Source of the DNA: an uncultured Clostridia bacterium
GTDB taxonomy: Bacteria > Bacillota_A > Clostridia > Oscillospirales > Oscillospiraceae
Assembly (NCBI GenBank): GCA_947167435.1
Contig: CAMVIC010000050.1
Location: 1 to 9,688 of the forward strand
Direction of reading: 5' to 3'
DNA: 9,688 nucleotides
Shown here: positions 1,997 through 9,688 of the stretch, in pieces
Layout: each line of letters opens with the position of its first letter
How positions within the stretch are numbered: the stretch's first letter is position 1
Notes under the pieces: generated by a model
What the model saw: only the letters and a program-made list of their open reading frames with translations
Told to the model about the DNA's origin: nothing
Databases searched by the model: none
Made by a program: the position numbers and the translations under genes

Positions 1997-3943
1997 ATGA
2001 AACCTGAAGCAAGCGAACAATACAACAAGGCCCTGAAAGCGGGGCAGAAATATTACAAGAACGCGGTGGCCCACGGCGGCTACCCCTACCCGCTGGTGCT
2101 GGACGAGATTCTGGACGAGAGCAGCGTGGCGGGCTATATGGACCTGGGGCTGGTGAACATCCCCACGGAGCGCATCGTGGGCACCAGGTCCGCCGGTCGC
2201 ACCGCCGCCCTGGCCGGGAACTTCATGCCCCTGCTGGAGGCCCGCAGCGAATTTGCCGGCAAGTGGATCTCCCTGTGTGACGCCCATCTGAGCGAAGAGG
2301 GCATCCGGGACCCCATCCAGTGCTACGAGTACCTGGGCCGCTTTTACGTGCAGGAGGGCAACAAGCGCCTGAGCGTTCTCCTCAGCTACCAGTCCCCCAC
2401 CATCTCCGGCCGGGTCACCCGCATCGTCCCCCGCTATTCCGACGACCATGACGTCCAGATTTATTACGAATTCATGCGTTTTTATTCCCTCTCCGGCCTG
2501 TACGGGGTGGACTTTCGGCACCGGGGCTGTTATGATAAGTTACAGGCGGCCCTGGGCTTTGACCCGGACCACGTCTGGACCGATATGGAGCGGCGCAGTT
2601 TTTCCGCCGGTTTCTCCCATTTCCGTGCCGCCTTTGAGAAGCTGAATCCGGACCCGGGCCCCATCACCCCGGCGGAGGCGCTGCTGGTCTGGCTGCAGGT
2701 CTTCCCCTTCTCCAAGATCAAGGAGCAGACCCAGCCGGAGCTTACCAAGAGCCTGGCCGGGATCTGGCCGGACGTGCAGGCCCAGGCGGACAGCGAGCCC
2801 ATCGCCCTGAGCACCGCCCCCGAGGACAAGGAGAAGAGCGTGCTGTCCAAGCTGCGGGAGTTTGCCCTCGGCGAGCATATCGACATCGCCTTTATCTACT
2901 CCTATTCCCCGGAGACCAGCCCCTGGATCCGCGCCCACGACGAGGGGCGGCAGTATCTGGAAGCGCGCATGGGCGACCGGGTGAGCGTGTCGGTGGTGCA
3001 CGCCTACAATCACGACTATCTCAGCGCTATTCTCGACGCCATCGAGGCCGGCGCGAAGCTGATATTTGCCGCAACGCCCTCCATGATCGACGACTGCCGC
3101 AAGGCCGCCGCCCTGTACCCGGAGGTGCACATCCTTAACTGCGCCCTGTCCCAGCCCTATCCCGGCGTGCGGGTCTACTACAACCGCATCTATGAATGCA
3201 AATTCATTGCCGGCGCCATTGCCGGCATCATGACCGAGGGGGACACGGTGGGCTACGTGGCAAACTATCCCATCTTCGGCGTGCCCACGGGCATCAACGC
3301 CTTCGCCCTGGGTCTGCGCATGACCAGGCCCGGCGCCCGGGTTAAGCTTCTCTGGTCCTGCACTCCAGGGGACCCGGTGGCGCGGCTGAGTGAGAGCGGC
3401 GTCACGGTAATCTCCAACCGGGACATCGCCGTACCCAACTGCAGGCGTCCGGCCCTGGGCGTTGGGACCTATATTCTGCGGGACGGGCAGCAGATTCTTC
3501 CGCTGGTCACCCCCGTGTATCACTGGGGAAAGCTCTACGAGAAGATCGTCGAAAGCATTTTCAGCGGCGCCTTCGACGATATTGCCAGCAGCAAGGCCGT
3601 CAACTACTGGTGGGGCATGGACAGCGGCGTGCTGGACGTGCAGCTGAGCGAAGCGCTCCCGGAGGGGCCGAAAAACCTTGGCCGGATTCTGCGGGACGGC
3701 ATCGCCGACGGCAGCATTCGCCCCTTCCAGGCCCGGATCGTCGACCAGGCCGGGCAGCTTCGAAACGACGGCAGCCGCAGCTTCTCCCCGGAGGAGCTGA
3801 TGAATATGGACTGGTTCTGCGACAATGTGGACGGGCAGATTCCCGGATTTGAGGAATTGCTGCCCATGTCCCGGGATCTGGTGCGGGTCCTGGGCCTGTA
3901 TCGGCGGACGCTTCCGCCGGAGAAGGAGGAAAAGCAATTGTGA
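1997..3943 (+). CDS. Cytosolic BMP/PnrA-like ligand-binding protein with ParB-like N-terminal motif
   Basis: The 648-residue protein has no signal peptide, lipobox or membrane segment, unlike the BMP-family lipoproteins that feed nucleoside ABC transporters. Residues 1-250 hold a region with YLGRFYVQEGNKRLSVLLSY (112-131), a motif like the EGNKR/EGHKR of ParB-like domains. Residues about 295-560 resemble the periplasmic-binding fold of BMP/PnrA proteins: IAFIYSYSP (298-306), LIFAATPSM (355-363), YYNRIYECKFIAGAIAGIM (394-412), VGYVANYPIFGVPTGINAFA (418-437) and VYHWGKLYEKIVESIFSG (507-524). The C-terminal tail (590-648) is helical. The ATG at 1997 is preceded by a purine-rich GGAAG. The stop overlaps the metallophosphoesterase start by 4 bases, so the two are probably translated together. 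Likely role: an intracellular sensor or handler of a nucleoside-like ligand. The fold call is good; ligand and ParB-like chemistry are not proven. Confidence 0.82.
   Translation: MKPEASEQYNKALKAGQKYYKNAVAHGGYPYPLVLDEILDESSVAGYMDLGLVNIPTERIVGTRSAGRTAALAGNFMPLLEARSEFAGKWISLCDAHLSEEGIRDPIQCYEYLGRFYVQEGNKRLSVLLSYQSPTISGRVTRIVPRYSDDHDVQIYYEFMRFYSLSGLYGVDFRHRGCYDKLQAALGFDPDHVWTDMERRSFSAGFSHFRAAFEKLNPDPGPITPAEALLVWLQVFPFSKIKEQTQPELTKSLAGIWPDVQAQADSEPIALSTAPEDKEKSVLSKLREFALGEHIDIAFIYSYSPETSPWIRAHDEGRQYLEARMGDRVSVSVVHAYNHDYLSAILDAIEAGAKLIFAATPSMIDDCRKAAALYPEVHILNCALSQPYPGVRVYYNRIYECKFIAGAIAGIMTEGDTVGYVANYPIFGVPTGINAFALGLRMTRPGARVKLLWSCTPGDPVARLSESGVTVISNRDIAVPNCRRPALGVGTYILRDGQQILPLVTPVYHWGKLYEKIVESIFSGAFDDIASSKAVNYWWGMDSGVLDVQLSEALPEGPKNLGRILRDGIADGSIRPFQARIVDQAGQLRNDGSRSFSPEELMNMDWFCDNVDGQIPGFEELLPMSRDLVRVLGLYRRTLPPEKEEKQL
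3923..3930 (+). promoter_or_regulatory. Ribosome binding site for the GTG-started metallophosphoesterase
   Basis: AAGGAGGA lies inside the last codons of the BMP-like gene, about 10 bases before the GTG at 3940. It supports the unusual GTG start and the GTGA overlap. Confidence 0.7.
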
Positions 3944-4569: not shown

Positions 4570-4595
4570 CGACGCTGCAGGATTCTTAATCATGC

Positions 4596-4640
4596 AAAAA
4601 TACCCGAAACCGTTCATCATCGGCGGTTTCGGGTATTTTT
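4596..4640. terminator. Bidirectional rho-independent terminator
   Basis: A perfect 17-bp inverted repeat (4596-4612 with 4624-4640) surrounds an 11-base loop. Rightward transcripts end in T6 (4636-4641); leftward transcripts end in T5 (complement of 4596-4600). It lies 26 bases after the metallophosphoesterase stop and 14 bases after the stop of the convergent acidic gene, so it would serve both. Confidence 0.92.
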
Positions 4641-4654
4641 TAATGGATTGCCTG

Positions 4655-7495
4655 CTAAAATTTCAGGATCAGGCTCAGGGCCGCCACGGGCAGGACAGCC
4701 GCCAGCATGAACAGCAGCAGGAACCCGGCGCCCACCGTCCCGGCGGACAGGAGCTTACCAAACACCAGCAGCACCCCCAGCACGGCGGCCAGAATGGTGA
4801 GCAGGAGATTGATGCGCGTGGCCACGTACATGCTGCGCCCGGTATCCGCCATGTGCACCAGGGGGCCCAGTCCCTCCCGGCAGACTACTGCAGCCACCTT
4901 GCTGTTCTGGCCGGGCTTGGCCTCGGACAGGGCAAAGCGCTCCACATAGGGCGGAAAGTCGTAGCCGTCAGTAGCCACGTCAAAGCTCTCGTGCAGCATC
5001 TCCGGGCTGACGTTGAAGTCCCGGATGGCGAAGATGGGATGCCGGTTGGAGCGGATCAGTCCCACCAGGGCCTTGCGCACCGGCGGCAGCGCCTCGTATT
5101 TCAGGTTGAAGATTCCGTACAGAATTCCGTCCACCGCCAGCAGCACCGTGGTTTTGCTCACAAGGCGATAGGGAATGCGCACGTTCATCAGGCGCATCAG
5201 CTCCGTGCCGCCGCACAGCACGTTTTCTCCGTCGATGATGCCCTTGAAGCCGCCGCCGGGCAGAAACTCGAAGTTCTCCACCCGTTTCATGCTGCAGGCG
5301 TTCTTCTGCATCAGATCCGCAAAGCAGGATGCGATGCCGGTGCCGGAGGCACAGATCATACTGCCCGCATAGGAGATGATCTTCTCGGCGGACACGTCGG
5401 CAAAAATCCGGATGCTGTCGATCTCCACGCTCCCCTCCGGGAACAGGTCCCGGTCGGTCACGATCAGGTTCTGGCTGCGGCCGATATCGCACAGGCCGGA
5501 CCATCCGGCCACGGCTGCGCCGCTGGAGAAGATGCGCATGGTGCCCACAAAATAGGGCAGGGCAAAGCACAGCAGCGCCGTCACCGGAACCGCCGGGCAC
5601 AGCAGCGCCGTCAATACGTACAGGAAGTCTCCCGTGCTCTTTTTGACCAGTACCACGATGACGGCCAACAGCAGGCAGAAAATGCCAAGCAGCGGGGCCA
5701 CCCGGTAAAAGGCGTTTTCATCCGGCGGTGTCTCCTCGGAGCGGCGCACGAAGCCGGTTGCGGGGCGGGAGGACTTGAGCAGGGTCACGTCCTTGCCCTT
5801 CAGGTCCTGTTCCCCGCAGACGGTATAGCTGCGCTTTCCGATGGCCGGCACCCGCAGCGCCTTGCGCAGGCCCCGGGCGCTGAGTACGGAGGAGCACAGC
5901 ACACCCATCAGGGACAGGCTGGAGATCAGGCACAGGGGCGTGTGGGGCGTTCCGAAGCCGTTCAACGCCACGGCCAGCGCGTCCAGGCTGGTGAGGACAC
6001 AGCAGAGTGTGGCCATGGAGTCTGCGCCGAAACGGCCCTGGGCCAGATTCAGGGCGGAATTGGTGATCACGTCCAGGTTCAGCAGCATGATGGCCAGCTG
6101 CAGGCCCAGGCAGAAGGCCGCCGCCACCCGATAGGTCTTGAGCATGCCGGTCACCGGCAGCCCCAGGGTGATGTAGGCCAGCACCGCCAGCAGGACGATG
6201 CCCAGCCGGAAGCGCATCCGCAGGGACTGCACCTGGGAGCCGTAGTAGCGGGTTGCGGCGGCAGGCGTCTGCTCCGGACCCAGGTCCTCGTCCTCATCCT
6301 CCACCGTATCCGGTGCGGTGCGCACGCCCGCGCCGAAAATCCGGGCCACAAGCCCCACGGCCATGCCCTGGATAAACTGCCAGAAGCTGGGGAAGGCGTC
6401 TTCATCGTCAAGCTCCACGCCGGTTGCCCGTCTGGCCGTTCCCGGTGCCTTCCGTTTTCCCTCCGCAGCGTCGCCGCTCTTTGGGGCATCCTCGTTCATG
6501 GGTTGTTCCGGCTCGGGCTGCTCCGGCTCGGGCTGCGGGGCGATGGTCGGTTCCGCAGCCGCCTCCGGCCCGGGCTCCGCGTCGAAGACGGGCAGGCTCT
6601 CCGCCGTCTCCTCCGCTTCCACGGCAGAGGCGAACAGACTGTCAAAGTCCGGTTCCGACGCCTCGGCCTCCGGTGCCTCCGGCTCCCGTGCCTCCGGCTC
6701 CCGTGTCTCTGCCGGGGCAGGCTGAACCGCCGGGGCAGGCTTGATCGCCGGTTCGGCCTCTTCGGTCTCTCCGGCCGCCAGCCGCGCTGCCTGAAGGGCA
6801 GCCTCCACAGCTTTCTTTTCTTCCTCCGCCGCGGCAGCGGCGAAGTATTCCTCCGCCGAATACTCCGGCGGCGAGTTGAGCGAACGCTTCTTCGGCTGCG
6901 GGCGCATCAGTCTGCGCAGGCGGCCCAGGAGGCTGTTGTCTTCCTTCTCGGGCGAGCCTGTCTCTTCCTCGCCCTCCTCCGTTCTGCTCCAGTGATACAG
7001 GTCGTCGGTGGACTGCCGGGGCGGCTCGTAATCCTCGTCCGCGCTCAGGTCCAGCTCCTTGTCCCCGAAATACATGCCGCTGCGGCTGCTGCCCACGTGA
7101 AAGCGCGGGTCAAAGCTCTCATCCGGCTTTTCTTCCCCGTCTCTCCCGCCGAAGGAGAAGGGCTGATGCCCCTGCTCCCCGGCAAGGCCGCTCTCGTCAG
7201 CGCTACCGATGATGGCGGCGATCTGCCGCGCTTCCTCGGTCATGGAGGCAAGCGTACCCGCTGCAGCCCCGGCAGCGCCCGCCGCTGCGGAGCCCGCTGC
7301 GGCAGCTCCGACGACCGCCGCGGTCCCGGCCGCCGCGGCGCCGACGGCTTTCACACCGGCCGCGGAGCGCGGGCGCACCCGGTCGTCCGGGGCTTCGTCT
7401 GCCTTTTCTTCCGTATATGCGTCATCTTCCGGCATTTCGCCGGAGAAGGTCTCCCCCGCCATGTCGGCTCTGAACTGGGCCAGGATATCGTCCAC
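4655..7495 (-). CDS. Degenerate P1B-type ATPase-like membrane protein with acidic N-terminal tail (3' part of a frameshifted gene)
   Basis: This is the downstream frame of one large gene. The first in-frame start codon is GTG at 7495, without a ribosome site, and the frame stays open back to a TGA at about 7619-7621; the true start is probably beyond the right edge. Numbered from 7495, residues 1-425 are acidic and low-complexity, with an Ala/Gly-rich stretch (44-85), a basic patch (191-205) and Pro-Glu repeats (259-332). Then come eight hydrophobic helices: 429-450, 456-475, 492-511, 517-538, 598-617, 624-650, 893-913 and 918-942. This is the 4+2+2 order of P1B heavy-metal ATPases. CPAVPV (633-638) stands at the CPC place, LIVTDRDLFPEG (677-688) at DKTGTLTxG, NFEFLPGGGFKGIIDG (741-756) resembles the nucleotide-domain glycine loop, and VLLAVDGILYGIFNLKYEA (784-802) the strand before TGDN. 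DKTGT, HP, TGDN and GDGxND are absent, and the actuator region is only about 60 residues. Most likely a catalytically dead relative. Confidence 0.65.
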   Translation of the reverse strand: MDDILAQFRADMAGETFSGEMPEDDAYTEEKADEAPDDRVRPRSAAGVKAVGAAAAGTAAVVGAAAAGSAAAGAAGAAAGTLASMTEEARQIAAIIGSADESGLAGEQGHQPFSFGGRDGEEKPDESFDPRFHVGSSRSGMYFGDKELDLSADEDYEPPRQSTDDLYHWSRTEEGEEETGSPEKEDNSLLGRLRRLMRPQPKKRSLNSPPEYSAEEYFAAAAAEEEKKAVEAALQAARLAAGETEEAEPAIKPAPAVQPAPAETREPEAREPEAPEAEASEPDFDSLFASAVEAEETAESLPVFDAEPGPEAAAEPTIAPQPEPEQPEPEQPMNEDAPKSGDAAEGKRKAPGTARRATGVELDDEDAFPSFWQFIQGMAVGLVARIFGAGVRTAPDTVEDEDEDLGPEQTPAAATRYYGSQVQSLRMRFRLGIVLLAVLAYITLGLPVTGMLKTYRVAAAFCLGLQLAIMLLNLDVITNSALNLAQGRFGADSMATLCCVLTSLDALAVALNGFGTPHTPLCLISSLSLMGVLCSSVLSARGLRKALRVPAIGKRSYTVCGEQDLKGKDVTLLKSSRPATGFVRRSEETPPDENAFYRVAPLLGIFCLLLAVIVVLVKKSTGDFLYVLTALLCPAVPVTALLCFALPYFVGTMRIFSSGAAVAGWSGLCDIGRSQNLIVTDRDLFPEGSVEIDSIRIFADVSAEKIISYAGSMICASGTGIASCFADLMQKNACSMKRVENFEFLPGGGFKGIIDGENVLCGGTELMRLMNVRIPYRLVSKTTVLLAVDGILYGIFNLKYEALPPVRKALVGLIRSNRHPIFAIRDFNVSPEMLHESFDVATDGYDFPPYVERFALSEAKPGQNSKVAAVVCREGLGPLVHMADTGRSMYVATRINLLLTILAAVLGVLLVFGKLLSAGTVGAGFLLLFMLAAVLPVAALSLILKF
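6505..6534 (-). repeat. 15-bp tandem repeat encoding Glu-Gln-Pro-Glu-Pro
   Basis: Two adjacent 15-base units (6505-6519, 6520-6534) differ at one base and encode the PEPEQPEPEQP stretch in the acidic tail of the pseudo-ATPase. The unit length keeps the frame, so copy number could vary without breaking the protein. Confidence 0.7.
6675..6704 (-). repeat. 15-bp perfect tandem repeat encoding REPEA
   Basis: Two identical 15-base units (6675-6689, 6690-6704) encode TREPEAREPEAPEAEA in the acidic tail, with a degenerate third unit at 6661-6674. This looks like slippage-driven growth of a disordered linker. Confidence 0.7.
6711..6741 (-). repeat. 18-bp-period repeat encoding PAPA units
   Basis: A 13-base sequence (gccggggcaggct) occurs at 6711-6723 and again at 6729-6741, period 18 bases, encoding KPAPAVQPAPAE. 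It is next to the REPEA repeat in the same Pro/Ala/Glu linker. Confidence 0.6.
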
Positions 7496-9688
7496 GGAGT
7501 ATTGCCGCCCGTCTGGGGCGCTGCTCTCCGCGTCCGCCGCGAAGGCAGACTCCTCTGACGGCAGCTGGACCGCCGTCTCCTCGTCCTCCTCCGCTTTCTC
7601 CCCGGCAGCGGGCCTGTTTCAGCCGCGGCCAGATAGTCCTCCTCGAAGCGGAAGTGGCTCGGCTCCTGCCGCCCCTCTTCCAGCTCCTGCCGCCGGCTGC
7701 GCTCCTCCTCCACGGCAAGGCCGAAATAGTTCGCCGCTTCGTCCGATCCGGCACCGCCGCGCTCCGCTTCCCCGTTGTCAAACAGGGGCGCACTGTCCGC
7801 GCTTTCGCCGCTCATCACAGCATAAAGCAGGCTCAGGCGGTCCTTCAGCTCTGTATCGGTCAGATCCGCCGGTGCCCGGCCCTCTCCGTCGGTTTCCGGC
7901 TCCGGTGCTTCTTCGTCGCCCTGGTCAATCCCGGTGGGAAGCGCGTCCGGATTCCGGTCCTCCGCTTTCTCCCCGGTATTCTGTTCCGGTTCCCAATCAA
8001 CCGCGGCCTCTTGCACGCGGGATTCTTCTCTTGTTTCCTGTCCGGGGACGTCTCCGTCCCCGCGGATGGCTGCTTCCTCAGTCGTCAGCATGTCCACCGC
8101 CTTTCCCTGCTTGTCTGCGTCGCGGAACTCCTGCGTCGCTTCCTGTCCGAATACCGCCGTATCCCCGCTCTGCTTCTCCGCATCTTCTCCCTGGTCTTCG
8201 AAGTATTCCGGATCCAGCGCAAGCGTCTCCGTGGGAAACAGGCTCTCCTCCAATTCAAAACCGTCCTCCGGCGGTGTGTTGTCCGCCTCCGGTTCCTCCG
8301 ACGGTTTCTCCCGGCTGAACAGGCCGCGAAGCCGGCTCCACAGGCCCTTTGGCCGCGCTGTCCGGTCCTCGCCCTGTGCGGGCTGATTCTTTTCTTCGTC
8401 AGGTTTCCCTGCCTGAGCGTCCTCGGCCGCCGTCTCTTCCTCCGCTTCTCCGGCTGGCGTGACGGCTGCCGCAGGCTCCTCCCGGGGCTCGCCCTCCTGG
8501 GCGTCCGGTTCTTCCGGCTCCGAAGATGTCTCCGCCGCGGAAAGCTCCGTATCGGAAAACTCCGGTGCATCCCCGCGCTGTTCGGCCCAGAATTCCGCCA
8601 GGATCTCCTGCACGCTGTATGCAGGCAGGCTGTATTCCTCCGCGCTCTCCGCCTCCGGGTCGGGCGTCGGTGTTTCTTCCTCCCGGTCGTCCTCTGCGTC
8701 TGTCTCCTGAGCGGGAGCCGGCGTCTCCTCCTGATCGCTCTCCGCGTCCGTCTCCGCCTCGGCGGTGCGGGCTTCGGCCCGGGCCTCGTCGGCGCTGTTG
8801 GCTGCGTTCAGGTCATCCCAGATTTTCAGCATGGCGGCAAACGACGCCTCGGTCTCTGCGTCCCAGACCACCTCAGGCGGCTGCTTCGCCTCAGGCGCCT
8901 CCGGCTCCGCCGGTTCTTCGGCATCTTCCGCGGCTGCGGCTTCCCCGCTGTCCGCCTCCGGCTGCTCATCCCCAGGCTGCGTCTCTGCTTTCTCCGATTC
9001 TTCGGACGCCGGGGCTTTCTCCTCGGGGAGCGGCGCCTGTTCCGGCTCCTCTGCAGGCGGCTCTTCCTGTTCCCCGGCGGGGATTTCATCCGGCTCAGGC
9101 TCTGCCGGAGCCGCGCCCCAGACGCGCACGTCCTCCCGGTCTTCTTCGTCCGCTGCCGGTTCTGCCTTTATCTCTGCGGTCACGGCGCCGGAATTCCAGA
9201 CGCGAACCGTTTCCTCTTCCCCTTCGTCATCCGGGCTCTGCCCGTCGGGGTGCGCGGGCGGGACGGCGCCCCAGACGCGCACGTCCTCGTCCTCATCCTC
9301 ATCCGGTGCCGCGTCCGGGTCGATTCCCAGGGCTTGCATGGCGCTGAGCAGATACTCCCGCGCCTCTTCCTCGGTGTATTCCGGCAGCGGCTCCGGGGAG
9401 AACTCCGGCTCCGCTTCGGCTTCTTCGCCGGCCTTCCTGCCGTCTTCTTCCGCTTCGTCTGCCGTGTCAGGATCTTCGCCGCTTTCCTCCGGAGCGGACT
9501 CTTCCGCGGCTTCCCCGCCGGTTTCCTCGGGTGTTTCCTGCACGGCGTCCGACTCCTCCGGCGTCGCGCTCTCCGCCTCCTCGTCGGAAGGCGCGGCGGG
9601 CGGATCCTGTTCCTCCTCATCCGGCGTTGCGGTCGCTTCGTTCCCGTCCGGAACCTCCGCCGCCGCTGCCGGTACGGCCGTCTTATCC
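7351..9688 (-). CDS. Giant acidic, probably disordered N-terminal region of the same gene (5' part, cut by right edge)
   Basis: The frame enters from the right edge (48 codons before the GTG at 9543) and has no clear start, so the N-terminus is outside the window. Numbered from 9543, residues 1-644 are rich in Glu, Asp, Ala and Pro, with few hydrophobic stretches and no membrane helix. They carry short helix-like modules (PEYTEEEAREYLLSAMQALG 54-73, SFAAMLKIWDDLNA 234-247, PAYSVQEILAEFWAEQ 307-322, LTDTELKDRLSLLYAVM 561-577), a thrice-repeated VRVW motif (88-91, 113-116, 139-142) and a basic amphipathic patch GLWSRLRGLFSREK (400-413). After residue about 644 the composition flips to Arg-rich and the frame stops at 7351. 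The next frame meanwhile continues the acidic style with AAGEKAEEDEE, which echoes NTGEKAED at 522-529. The tail after about 7610 is therefore an out-of-frame artefact. No function is recognised. Confidence 0.6.
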   Translation of the reverse strand, partial: DKTAVPAAAAEVPDGNEATATPDEEEQDPPAAPSDEEAESATPEESDAVQETPEETGGEAAEESAPEESGEDPDTADEAEEDGRKAGEEAEAEPEFSPEPLPEYTEEEAREYLLSAMQALGIDPDAAPDEDEDEDVRVWGAVPPAHPDGQSPDDEGEEETVRVWNSGAVTAEIKAEPAADEEDREDVRVWGAAPAEPEPDEIPAGEQEEPPAEEPEQAPLPEEKAPASEESEKAETQPGDEQPEADSGEAAAAEDAEEPAEPEAPEAKQPPEVVWDAETEASFAAMLKIWDDLNAANSADEARAEARTAEAETDAESDQEETPAPAQETDAEDDREEETPTPDPEAESAEEYSLPAYSVQEILAEFWAEQRGDAPEFSDTELSAAETSSEPEEPDAQEGEPREEPAAAVTPAGEAEEETAAEDAQAGKPDEEKNQPAQGEDRTARPKGLWSRLRGLFSREKPSEEPEADNTPPEDGFELEESLFPTETLALDPEYFEDQGEDAEKQSGDTAVFGQEATQEFRDADKQGKAVDMLTTEEAAIRGDGDVPGQETREESRVQEAAVDWEPEQNTGEKAEDRNPDALPTGIDQGDEEAPEPETDGEGRAPADLTDTELKDRLSLLYAVMSGESADSAPLFDNGEAERGGAGSDEAANYFGLAVEEERSRRQELEEGRQEPSHFRFEEDYLAAAETGPLPGRKRRRTRRRRSSCRQRSLPSRRTRRAAPQTGGNTPWTISWPSSEPTWRGRPSPAKCRKMTHIRKKRQTKPRTTGCARAPRPV
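7594..7621 (-). other. Apparent -1 frameshift joining the two halves of the large acidic gene
   Basis: Upstream, the sensible frame reads EEDYLAAAETG; downstream, the sensible frame reads AAGEKAEEDEETAVQLP. Joining them needs a shift of -1 between about 7603 and 7621. Adding one C to the short C run of the coding strand (7609-7611) would give ETGPAAGEKAEEDEE without a break. No classic X-XXY-YYZ slippery heptamer is in frame; A-AAG at 7594-7597 is a weak alternative. A sequencing or assembly error, a natural mutation, or recoding cannot be told apart here. Confidence 0.75.
9113..9288 (-). repeat. VRVW repeat: three copies, two identical over 23 bp
   Basis: A 23-base sequence occurs identically at 9113-9135 and 9266-9288 and encodes EDVRVWGA each time. 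A diverged third copy between them (about 9196-9210) encodes TVRVWNSGA. The copies are 25-26 codons apart and are joined by acidic linkers. Trp and Arg in an otherwise acidic, order-poor region suggest a conserved short binding motif. Confidence 0.75.

Follow-up and report, generated by a model that had tools for sequence, protein, structure and literature searches.

P-type ATPases are textbook enzymes. GDGxND is a motif of the active members, and helix 6 of the P1B subfamily carries a metal site, CPx or an equivalent. The review PMC10654040 calls the DKTGT phosphorylation motif the signature of P-type ATPases and describes their A domain as carrying a Glu-bearing phosphatase loop. PcrP/PA2803 of Pseudomonas, a HAD-superfamily protein reported in PMC12632274 as lacking catalysis and binding protein partners, offers a non-catalytic parallel, but is a putative phosphonatase relative and not derived from a P-type ATPase. 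Here, we describe a gene, termed the pseudo-pump, on a 9,688-nucleotide stretch (the window; contig CAMVIC010000050.1 of assembly GCA_947167435.1) from an uncultured Clostridia bacterium. It shares with the P1B heavy-metal ATPases CopA, ZntA and CadA (TIGR01525) the eight-helix 4+2+2 order, the N-domain fold with its glycines, a P-domain remnant and distant sequence similarity, but lacks DKTGT, HP, TGD and GDGxND, does not keep CPx, has an A domain of only about 38 residues and carries a long acidic N-terminal tail. On balance, we favor the reading that selection has kept the gene for this P1B-derived eight-helix core, no longer able to phosphorylate or transport, in single copy across a clostridial order, and that the protein acts as an anchor with a partner-recruiting tail.

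Fold, descent and motif losses of the core

The pseudo-pump core comprises the 517 C-terminal residues of the protein (window positions 4655–6208; all pseudo-pump features lie on the minus strand). It matches TIGR01525 at E 3.9e-8, under the curated cut-off of that family, and the CopB ATP-binding domain at E of about 1e-3, and an hhalign profile comparison gave an E of 8.6e-18. The first structure model was weaker (pLDDT 72, pTM 0.51), and helix positions are those of a second model. The latter reproduces the 4+2+2 helix order that an earlier note, made from the sequence alone, had read: four transmembrane helices in the MA, MB, M1 and M2 positions (residues 7–148; 5840–6265) are followed by the shrunken A-domain remnant (5726–5839), with short strands at residues 154–159 and 166–171, by helices 5 and 6 (M3 and M4; residues 187–253; 5525–5725) and, beyond the P and N domains, by the last two helices (residues 473–513 and 519–539; 4667–4867). 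The P-type structural match that the note had named as a check was also found: the core model matches P1B ATPases (CopA) in fold, and the CopA N domain 2voy_J superposes on 109 core residues at an rmsd of 2.0. A viral structure library gave a single match under E 0.001, to another P-type ATPase, and three of the four matches that follow it are P-type ATPases as well. Homology thus stands above chance by several routes, the fold and profile matches rule out another eight-helix family, and the helix order, the P and N domains inserted after helix 6 and before helix 7 and the detectable sequence homology make descent of the core from a P1B heavy-metal ATPase almost certain.

Relatives were collected in two homologue searches, which returned 916 proteins at E ≤ 1e-3 among 7996 scored and, with a wide alignment, 641 at E ≤ 1e-20; 120 of each were listed (in the first search the best 120), and the two lists supplied the 220 listed family proteins. 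Loci were compared in three sets, namely near loci (L001–L080 from named genomes, the best 80 of 93 confirmed loci), far loci (L111–L170, 60 regions chosen among 111 matching genomes) and deeper loci (L195–L234, 40 regions, mostly weaker matches from a scan with the wide profile, A2).

In the window, the DKTGT phosphorylation motif is replaced by TDRDLFPEG (5432–5458). D[KR]TGT occurs in none of the 220 listed homologues; DRDLFP is found in 216 of them and the looser D.D[LIVF][FY]P in 219. Open reading frames (ORFs) with D[KR]TGT were excluded by rule before near and far loci were counted, the check being that a member without the motif remains at each of the 140 loci; the DKTGT proteins at L048 and L129 that match the profile are separate canonical pump genes. 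DKTGT is likewise absent from the 40 deeper loci, which hold 40 members. The earlier note had considered that intact homologues might expose the window gene as a simple mutated pump; none exists in these three sets, and this explanation is rejected for the family. The second Asp of the new DxD is present in 139 of the 140 near and far rows, the remaining row being a gap, and is eroded in the deeper set, where the position holds Asp in 21 members, Glu in 14 and other residues in five.

The other pump motifs have changed as well. In most near and far members, [IVLT]RD stands where TGD was (AIRDFN in the window), the Asp of TGD being kept in 79/80 near, 54/60 far and 38/40 deeper members, and GDGxND has mostly become R[ED]G, with CREGLGP in the window; both lie in the second half of the P domain (4868–5092). 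In the window, the metal site in M4 is reduced to CPA within ALLCPAVPV, and the Cys of this site is retained in only 29 of the 80 near and five of the 60 far members. The A-domain remnant begins with TGE in 41/80 near and 2/60 far members and with CGE in the window; this tripeptide, which may or may not be the old phosphatase loop, is not conserved in the family. The note had read a remnant of the cytosolic domain without HP; this motif is indeed lost, but the N-domain fold (5093–5431) persists in the structure match; most of the GGG and VLCG glycines are retained, and two N-domain glycines are kept. TDRDLFPEG and CPA are present as the note had read them, and AIRDFN and CREGL stand where it had found TGDN and GDGxND gone. 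Sequence, profile and fold all support its proposal of a pseudo-ATPase. Pumping has very probably been lost.

Spread, acidic tail and neighboring genes

The gene is widely distributed in the order. The wide profile A2 matches at E ≤ 1e-40 in 90 of the 98 genomes sampled from the order, once in each except G091, in which the match is split over two contigs; the narrow alignment A1 undercounts the order, with 111 of 295 genomes. Searches of genome contigs gave no match with a single protein and gave matches with an alignment. In a sample of 391 genomes of the class, 17 full-length matches (E 2.3e-60 or better) were found, all in genomes that also belong to the order sample (17 of the 18 such genomes listed, G111 being the one without a full-length match). 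The other matches listed there are all partial (within positions 176–483) and no stronger than E 3.6e-33, which fits ordinary P1B pumps, and, judging from the genomes that recur between samples, the class-sample genomes without a full-length match presumably lie outside the order. Record titles name the hosts as Oscillospiraceae, Ruminococcaceae, Clostridiales, Eubacteriales, Clostridia, Candidatus Limivicinus (Clostridia, Eubacteriales in the NCBI taxonomy) and others, many of them rumen or gut assemblies. The core is under purifying selection, with a median dN/dS of 0.16; 163 of the 168 pairs with more than 80% identity were usable for this estimate. The family has no Pfam entry.

Upstream of the core, the tail is spread over two reading frames. 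The core gene was called as an ORF of 946 residues (4655–7495), its frame being open from 4655 to 7618; a second, acidic frame (7351–9687) is open up to the window end. Read down from the window end, this acidic frame becomes Arg-rich once past about 7600, and there the core frame becomes acidic. GC content by codon position confirms a switch of coding frame near 7600 (7590–7620), by frameshift or assembly error. A 470-residue part of the tail (6209–7618; 21.9% Asp and Glu) thus lies in the core frame and a 697-residue part (7619–9687; 31.6%), which includes about eight residues past the frame change, in the other. Since the long relatives P0004 (1588 residues) and L012 (1572 residues) read through tail and core in one frame, the break in the window is attributed to a local frameshift or assembly error. 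The acidic tail that the earlier note had described as fused to the core therefore does precede it, for about 1,167 residues, but no intact fusion exists in the window. The start of the gene is not included in the window, which ends within the tail. Opposite the pseudo-pump gene, an antisense ORF of 988 residues (4592–7558, plus strand) is attributed to the high GC content; gene calls came from a codon-based caller, which still called an antisense ORF over the upstream tail of the window.

The recurrent helical modules that the note had seen in some 1,150 acidic residues include a repeated motif, with copies QYSVDDILAQFRAD (7463–7504) and AYSVQEILAEFWAE (8581–8622). Among tails of at least 100 residues, the strict pattern occurs at least once in 47 of the 79 near and in 44 of the 59 far ones, against a background of at most 0.0003 per shuffled protein and none in 723 neighboring ORFs of the far loci. 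A looser pattern matches in nine of 40 deeper members.

A scaffold or tether role appears plausible. The core would anchor the protein in the membrane, and the long, probably disordered tail would extend into the cytosol, where its helices of the type [FY]S-hydrophobic-[DE][DE]-ILAE[FYV] may serve as docking peptides for a putative cytosolic partner. The N- and P-domain remnants could offer a second surface for docking, or a switch that responds to a ligand or nucleotide without hydrolysis. A partner might be expected in the vicinity of the ribosome or of the machinery for membrane insertion.

The gene has a steady position behind rlmB, whose product modifies the ribosome, and this position suggests co-expression with ribosome maturation. 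An rlmB gene lies upstream on the same strand at 68 of 81 near loci (the window, cut by its end, and truncated contigs being counted) and at 44 of 60 far loci, and is adjacent at 36 of the 39 deeper loci with enough sequence, one of the 40 being left out. The first possible start follows rlmB at median distances of 40.5 and 23 nt, and far distances are at most 112 nt in 44 of 46 cases. An EF-G-like gene, usually downstream, is present at 51 of 81 near loci, where 45 of its 53 copies share the strand, and at 22 of 60 far loci. Downstream in the window, its place is taken by a metallophosphoesterase gene convergent with the pseudo-pump. Divergent from rlmB and upstream of it, a further gene has relatives at 68 of 81 near loci; its example (L004 5188–6045, minus strand) encodes an apparently membrane-bound protein with a Cys-rich C-terminus and no Pfam or NCBIfam match. 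Elsewhere in the window, the metallophosphoesterase gene follows a gene (1997–3943, plus strand) for a 648-residue protein in which residues 298–454 match a BMP/PnrA-like domain (PF02608) and the long N-terminal half has no assigned domain, and a cytochrome c552-type (NrfA-like) protein (PF02335, E 4.7e-74) is encoded beside a ResB-like gene, the two lying at 462–1760 and 1–391 on the minus strand.

Alternative readings and related degenerate pumps

Several observations speak against the pseudo-pump as a conserved anchor with a docking tail. The TM-scores from Foldseek are modest, that of the best match being 0.44 by query length, and whole-chain rmsd is high in the structure matches to P1B ATPases. 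No A2 match at E ≤ 1e-40 was found in eight of the 98 genomes of the order, and three wide-profile matches carry one internal stop. The strict tail motif is absent from 32/79 near and 15/59 far tails, some of which have looser variants, and is found in just six of 34 deeper tails, so that motif docking cannot explain the whole family. An operon with rlmB is suggested by spacing alone. A simple loss of the phospho-Asp is also weakened, as two registers are possible. In the ungapped register of the profile alignment, the phospho-Asp faces the residue preceding the first Asp of DxD, and this residue is Asp in 0/80 near, 2/60 far and 10/40 deeper members; in the other, it faces the first Asp itself, which persists in 79/80 near (one gap), 48/60 far (replaced in 12) and 32/40 deeper members. 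Finally, the clade of the window keeps an acid at position I, Asp at II, Lys or Arg at III and Asp or Glu at IV in 79 of 80 members.

This last set speaks for the strongest alternative, in which the former active site has been remodeled and the conserved DxDLFP, RDFN, Arg and R[ED]G residues serve either a HAD-type phosphohydrolase in the membrane or a sensor for a ligand. HAD phosphatases have Asp at motif I, Thr or Ser at motif II, Lys or Arg at motif III and an acidic motif IV, and DxD resembles their motif I; the two retained N-domain glycines would also fit. The full HAD-like set is, however, found in 0/80 near, 16/60 far and 2/40 deeper members, so that no single chemistry is common to the family, and the erosion of the second Asp in the deeper set likewise leaves no family-wide catalytic set. 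We consider this alternative unlikely, with the qualification that the fixed acidic set of the window's clade leaves room for a new site, for some chemistry or for Mg2+ binding. The word "dead" in the earlier note accordingly holds for the pump machinery, but may not hold for the site, which is remodeled and strictly kept in this clade.

Less probable still, the pseudo-pump might be an inactive partner that regulates canonical P-type ATPases by pairing; MgtA, for comparison, is a P-type ATPase reported as a dimer (PMC10925321), but is described as a Mg2+ transporter. In favor of pairing, seven member genomes examined have three to seven PF00122 matches each and contain further degenerate P1B-like families. 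Family B, found in at least five of the seven (L171 in G001, L174 in G002, L178 in G006, L180 in G005 and L184 in G007), carries Gly, Ser or Glu where pumps have the phospho-Asp (F[GSE]KTG) and keeps many other P1B motifs. Among the 120 listed of its 362 relatives, 115 have Gly and 107 begin with MARH or MAKH; the few entries with a source name are called heavy-metal or cadmium ATPases. Family B shares with the pseudo-pump P1B descent and the loss of the phospho-acceptor, but retains a near-full P1B sequence (TIGR01525 E 4e-108, above cut-off) and forms a separate clade. A third family, in at least three of the seven genomes (L181 in G001, L182 in G005 and L183 in G007), has FDKAG[IV]F, LTED for LTGD and no GDGxND. 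Both counts are minima, since 14 of the 32 PF00122 matches of the seven genomes were fetched. In a tree of 39 rows, rooted at its midpoint only and with every third row of A2 representing the window's family, all four groups form single clades, and this family has a support of 100/100 and a long branch. Against pairing, the recurring neighbor is rlmB and no pump gene, and the family profile found just the two canonical pumps at the 140 near and far loci.

The earlier note had also proposed a metal buffer, in which the acidic tail and the CPx remnant would store metal. The net charge of about −235 over the 1,167 tail residues is in its favor, but these residues include no Cys, in either part, and only five His, for which reason a store is disfavored; the CPx Cys is poorly kept, and tail length is highly variable, with the core match starting anywhere from residue 18 to 1103 in listed homologues, some perhaps cut by contig ends. 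This makes such a function very improbable. A decaying pseudogene or locally mutated pump copy, to which the frame change and the three internal stops might point, is scarcely credible given the lack of DKTGT in the 220 listed homologues and at the 180 loci, the low dN/dS, the presence in 90 of 98 genomes and the position of the frame change in the tail.

Significance for the order

In the open-licence papers searched, we found no description of a conserved non-pumping branch of P-type ATPases. Since the pseudo-pump is a single-copy gene in 90 of 98 sampled genomes and has no Pfam family, it probably does something basic in the order. The order also offers a natural series for studying the path from pump to pseudoenzyme, from the near-complete proteins of family B, in which the phospho-Asp alone is replaced, to fully remodeled ones. 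More speculatively, and in our view rather doubtfully, the dead site may have become a ligand-sensing pocket and the tail motifs, multi-copy in some lineages, may gather partners at the membrane with ribosome maturation, in a near-universal signaling or assembly platform. If true, these genomes, with the pseudo-pump and two further degenerate P1B families, would hold the first expansion of pseudo-P-type ATPases to be described within the literature searched, and an entire bacterial order would have converted a metal pump into a membrane signaling or assembly platform.
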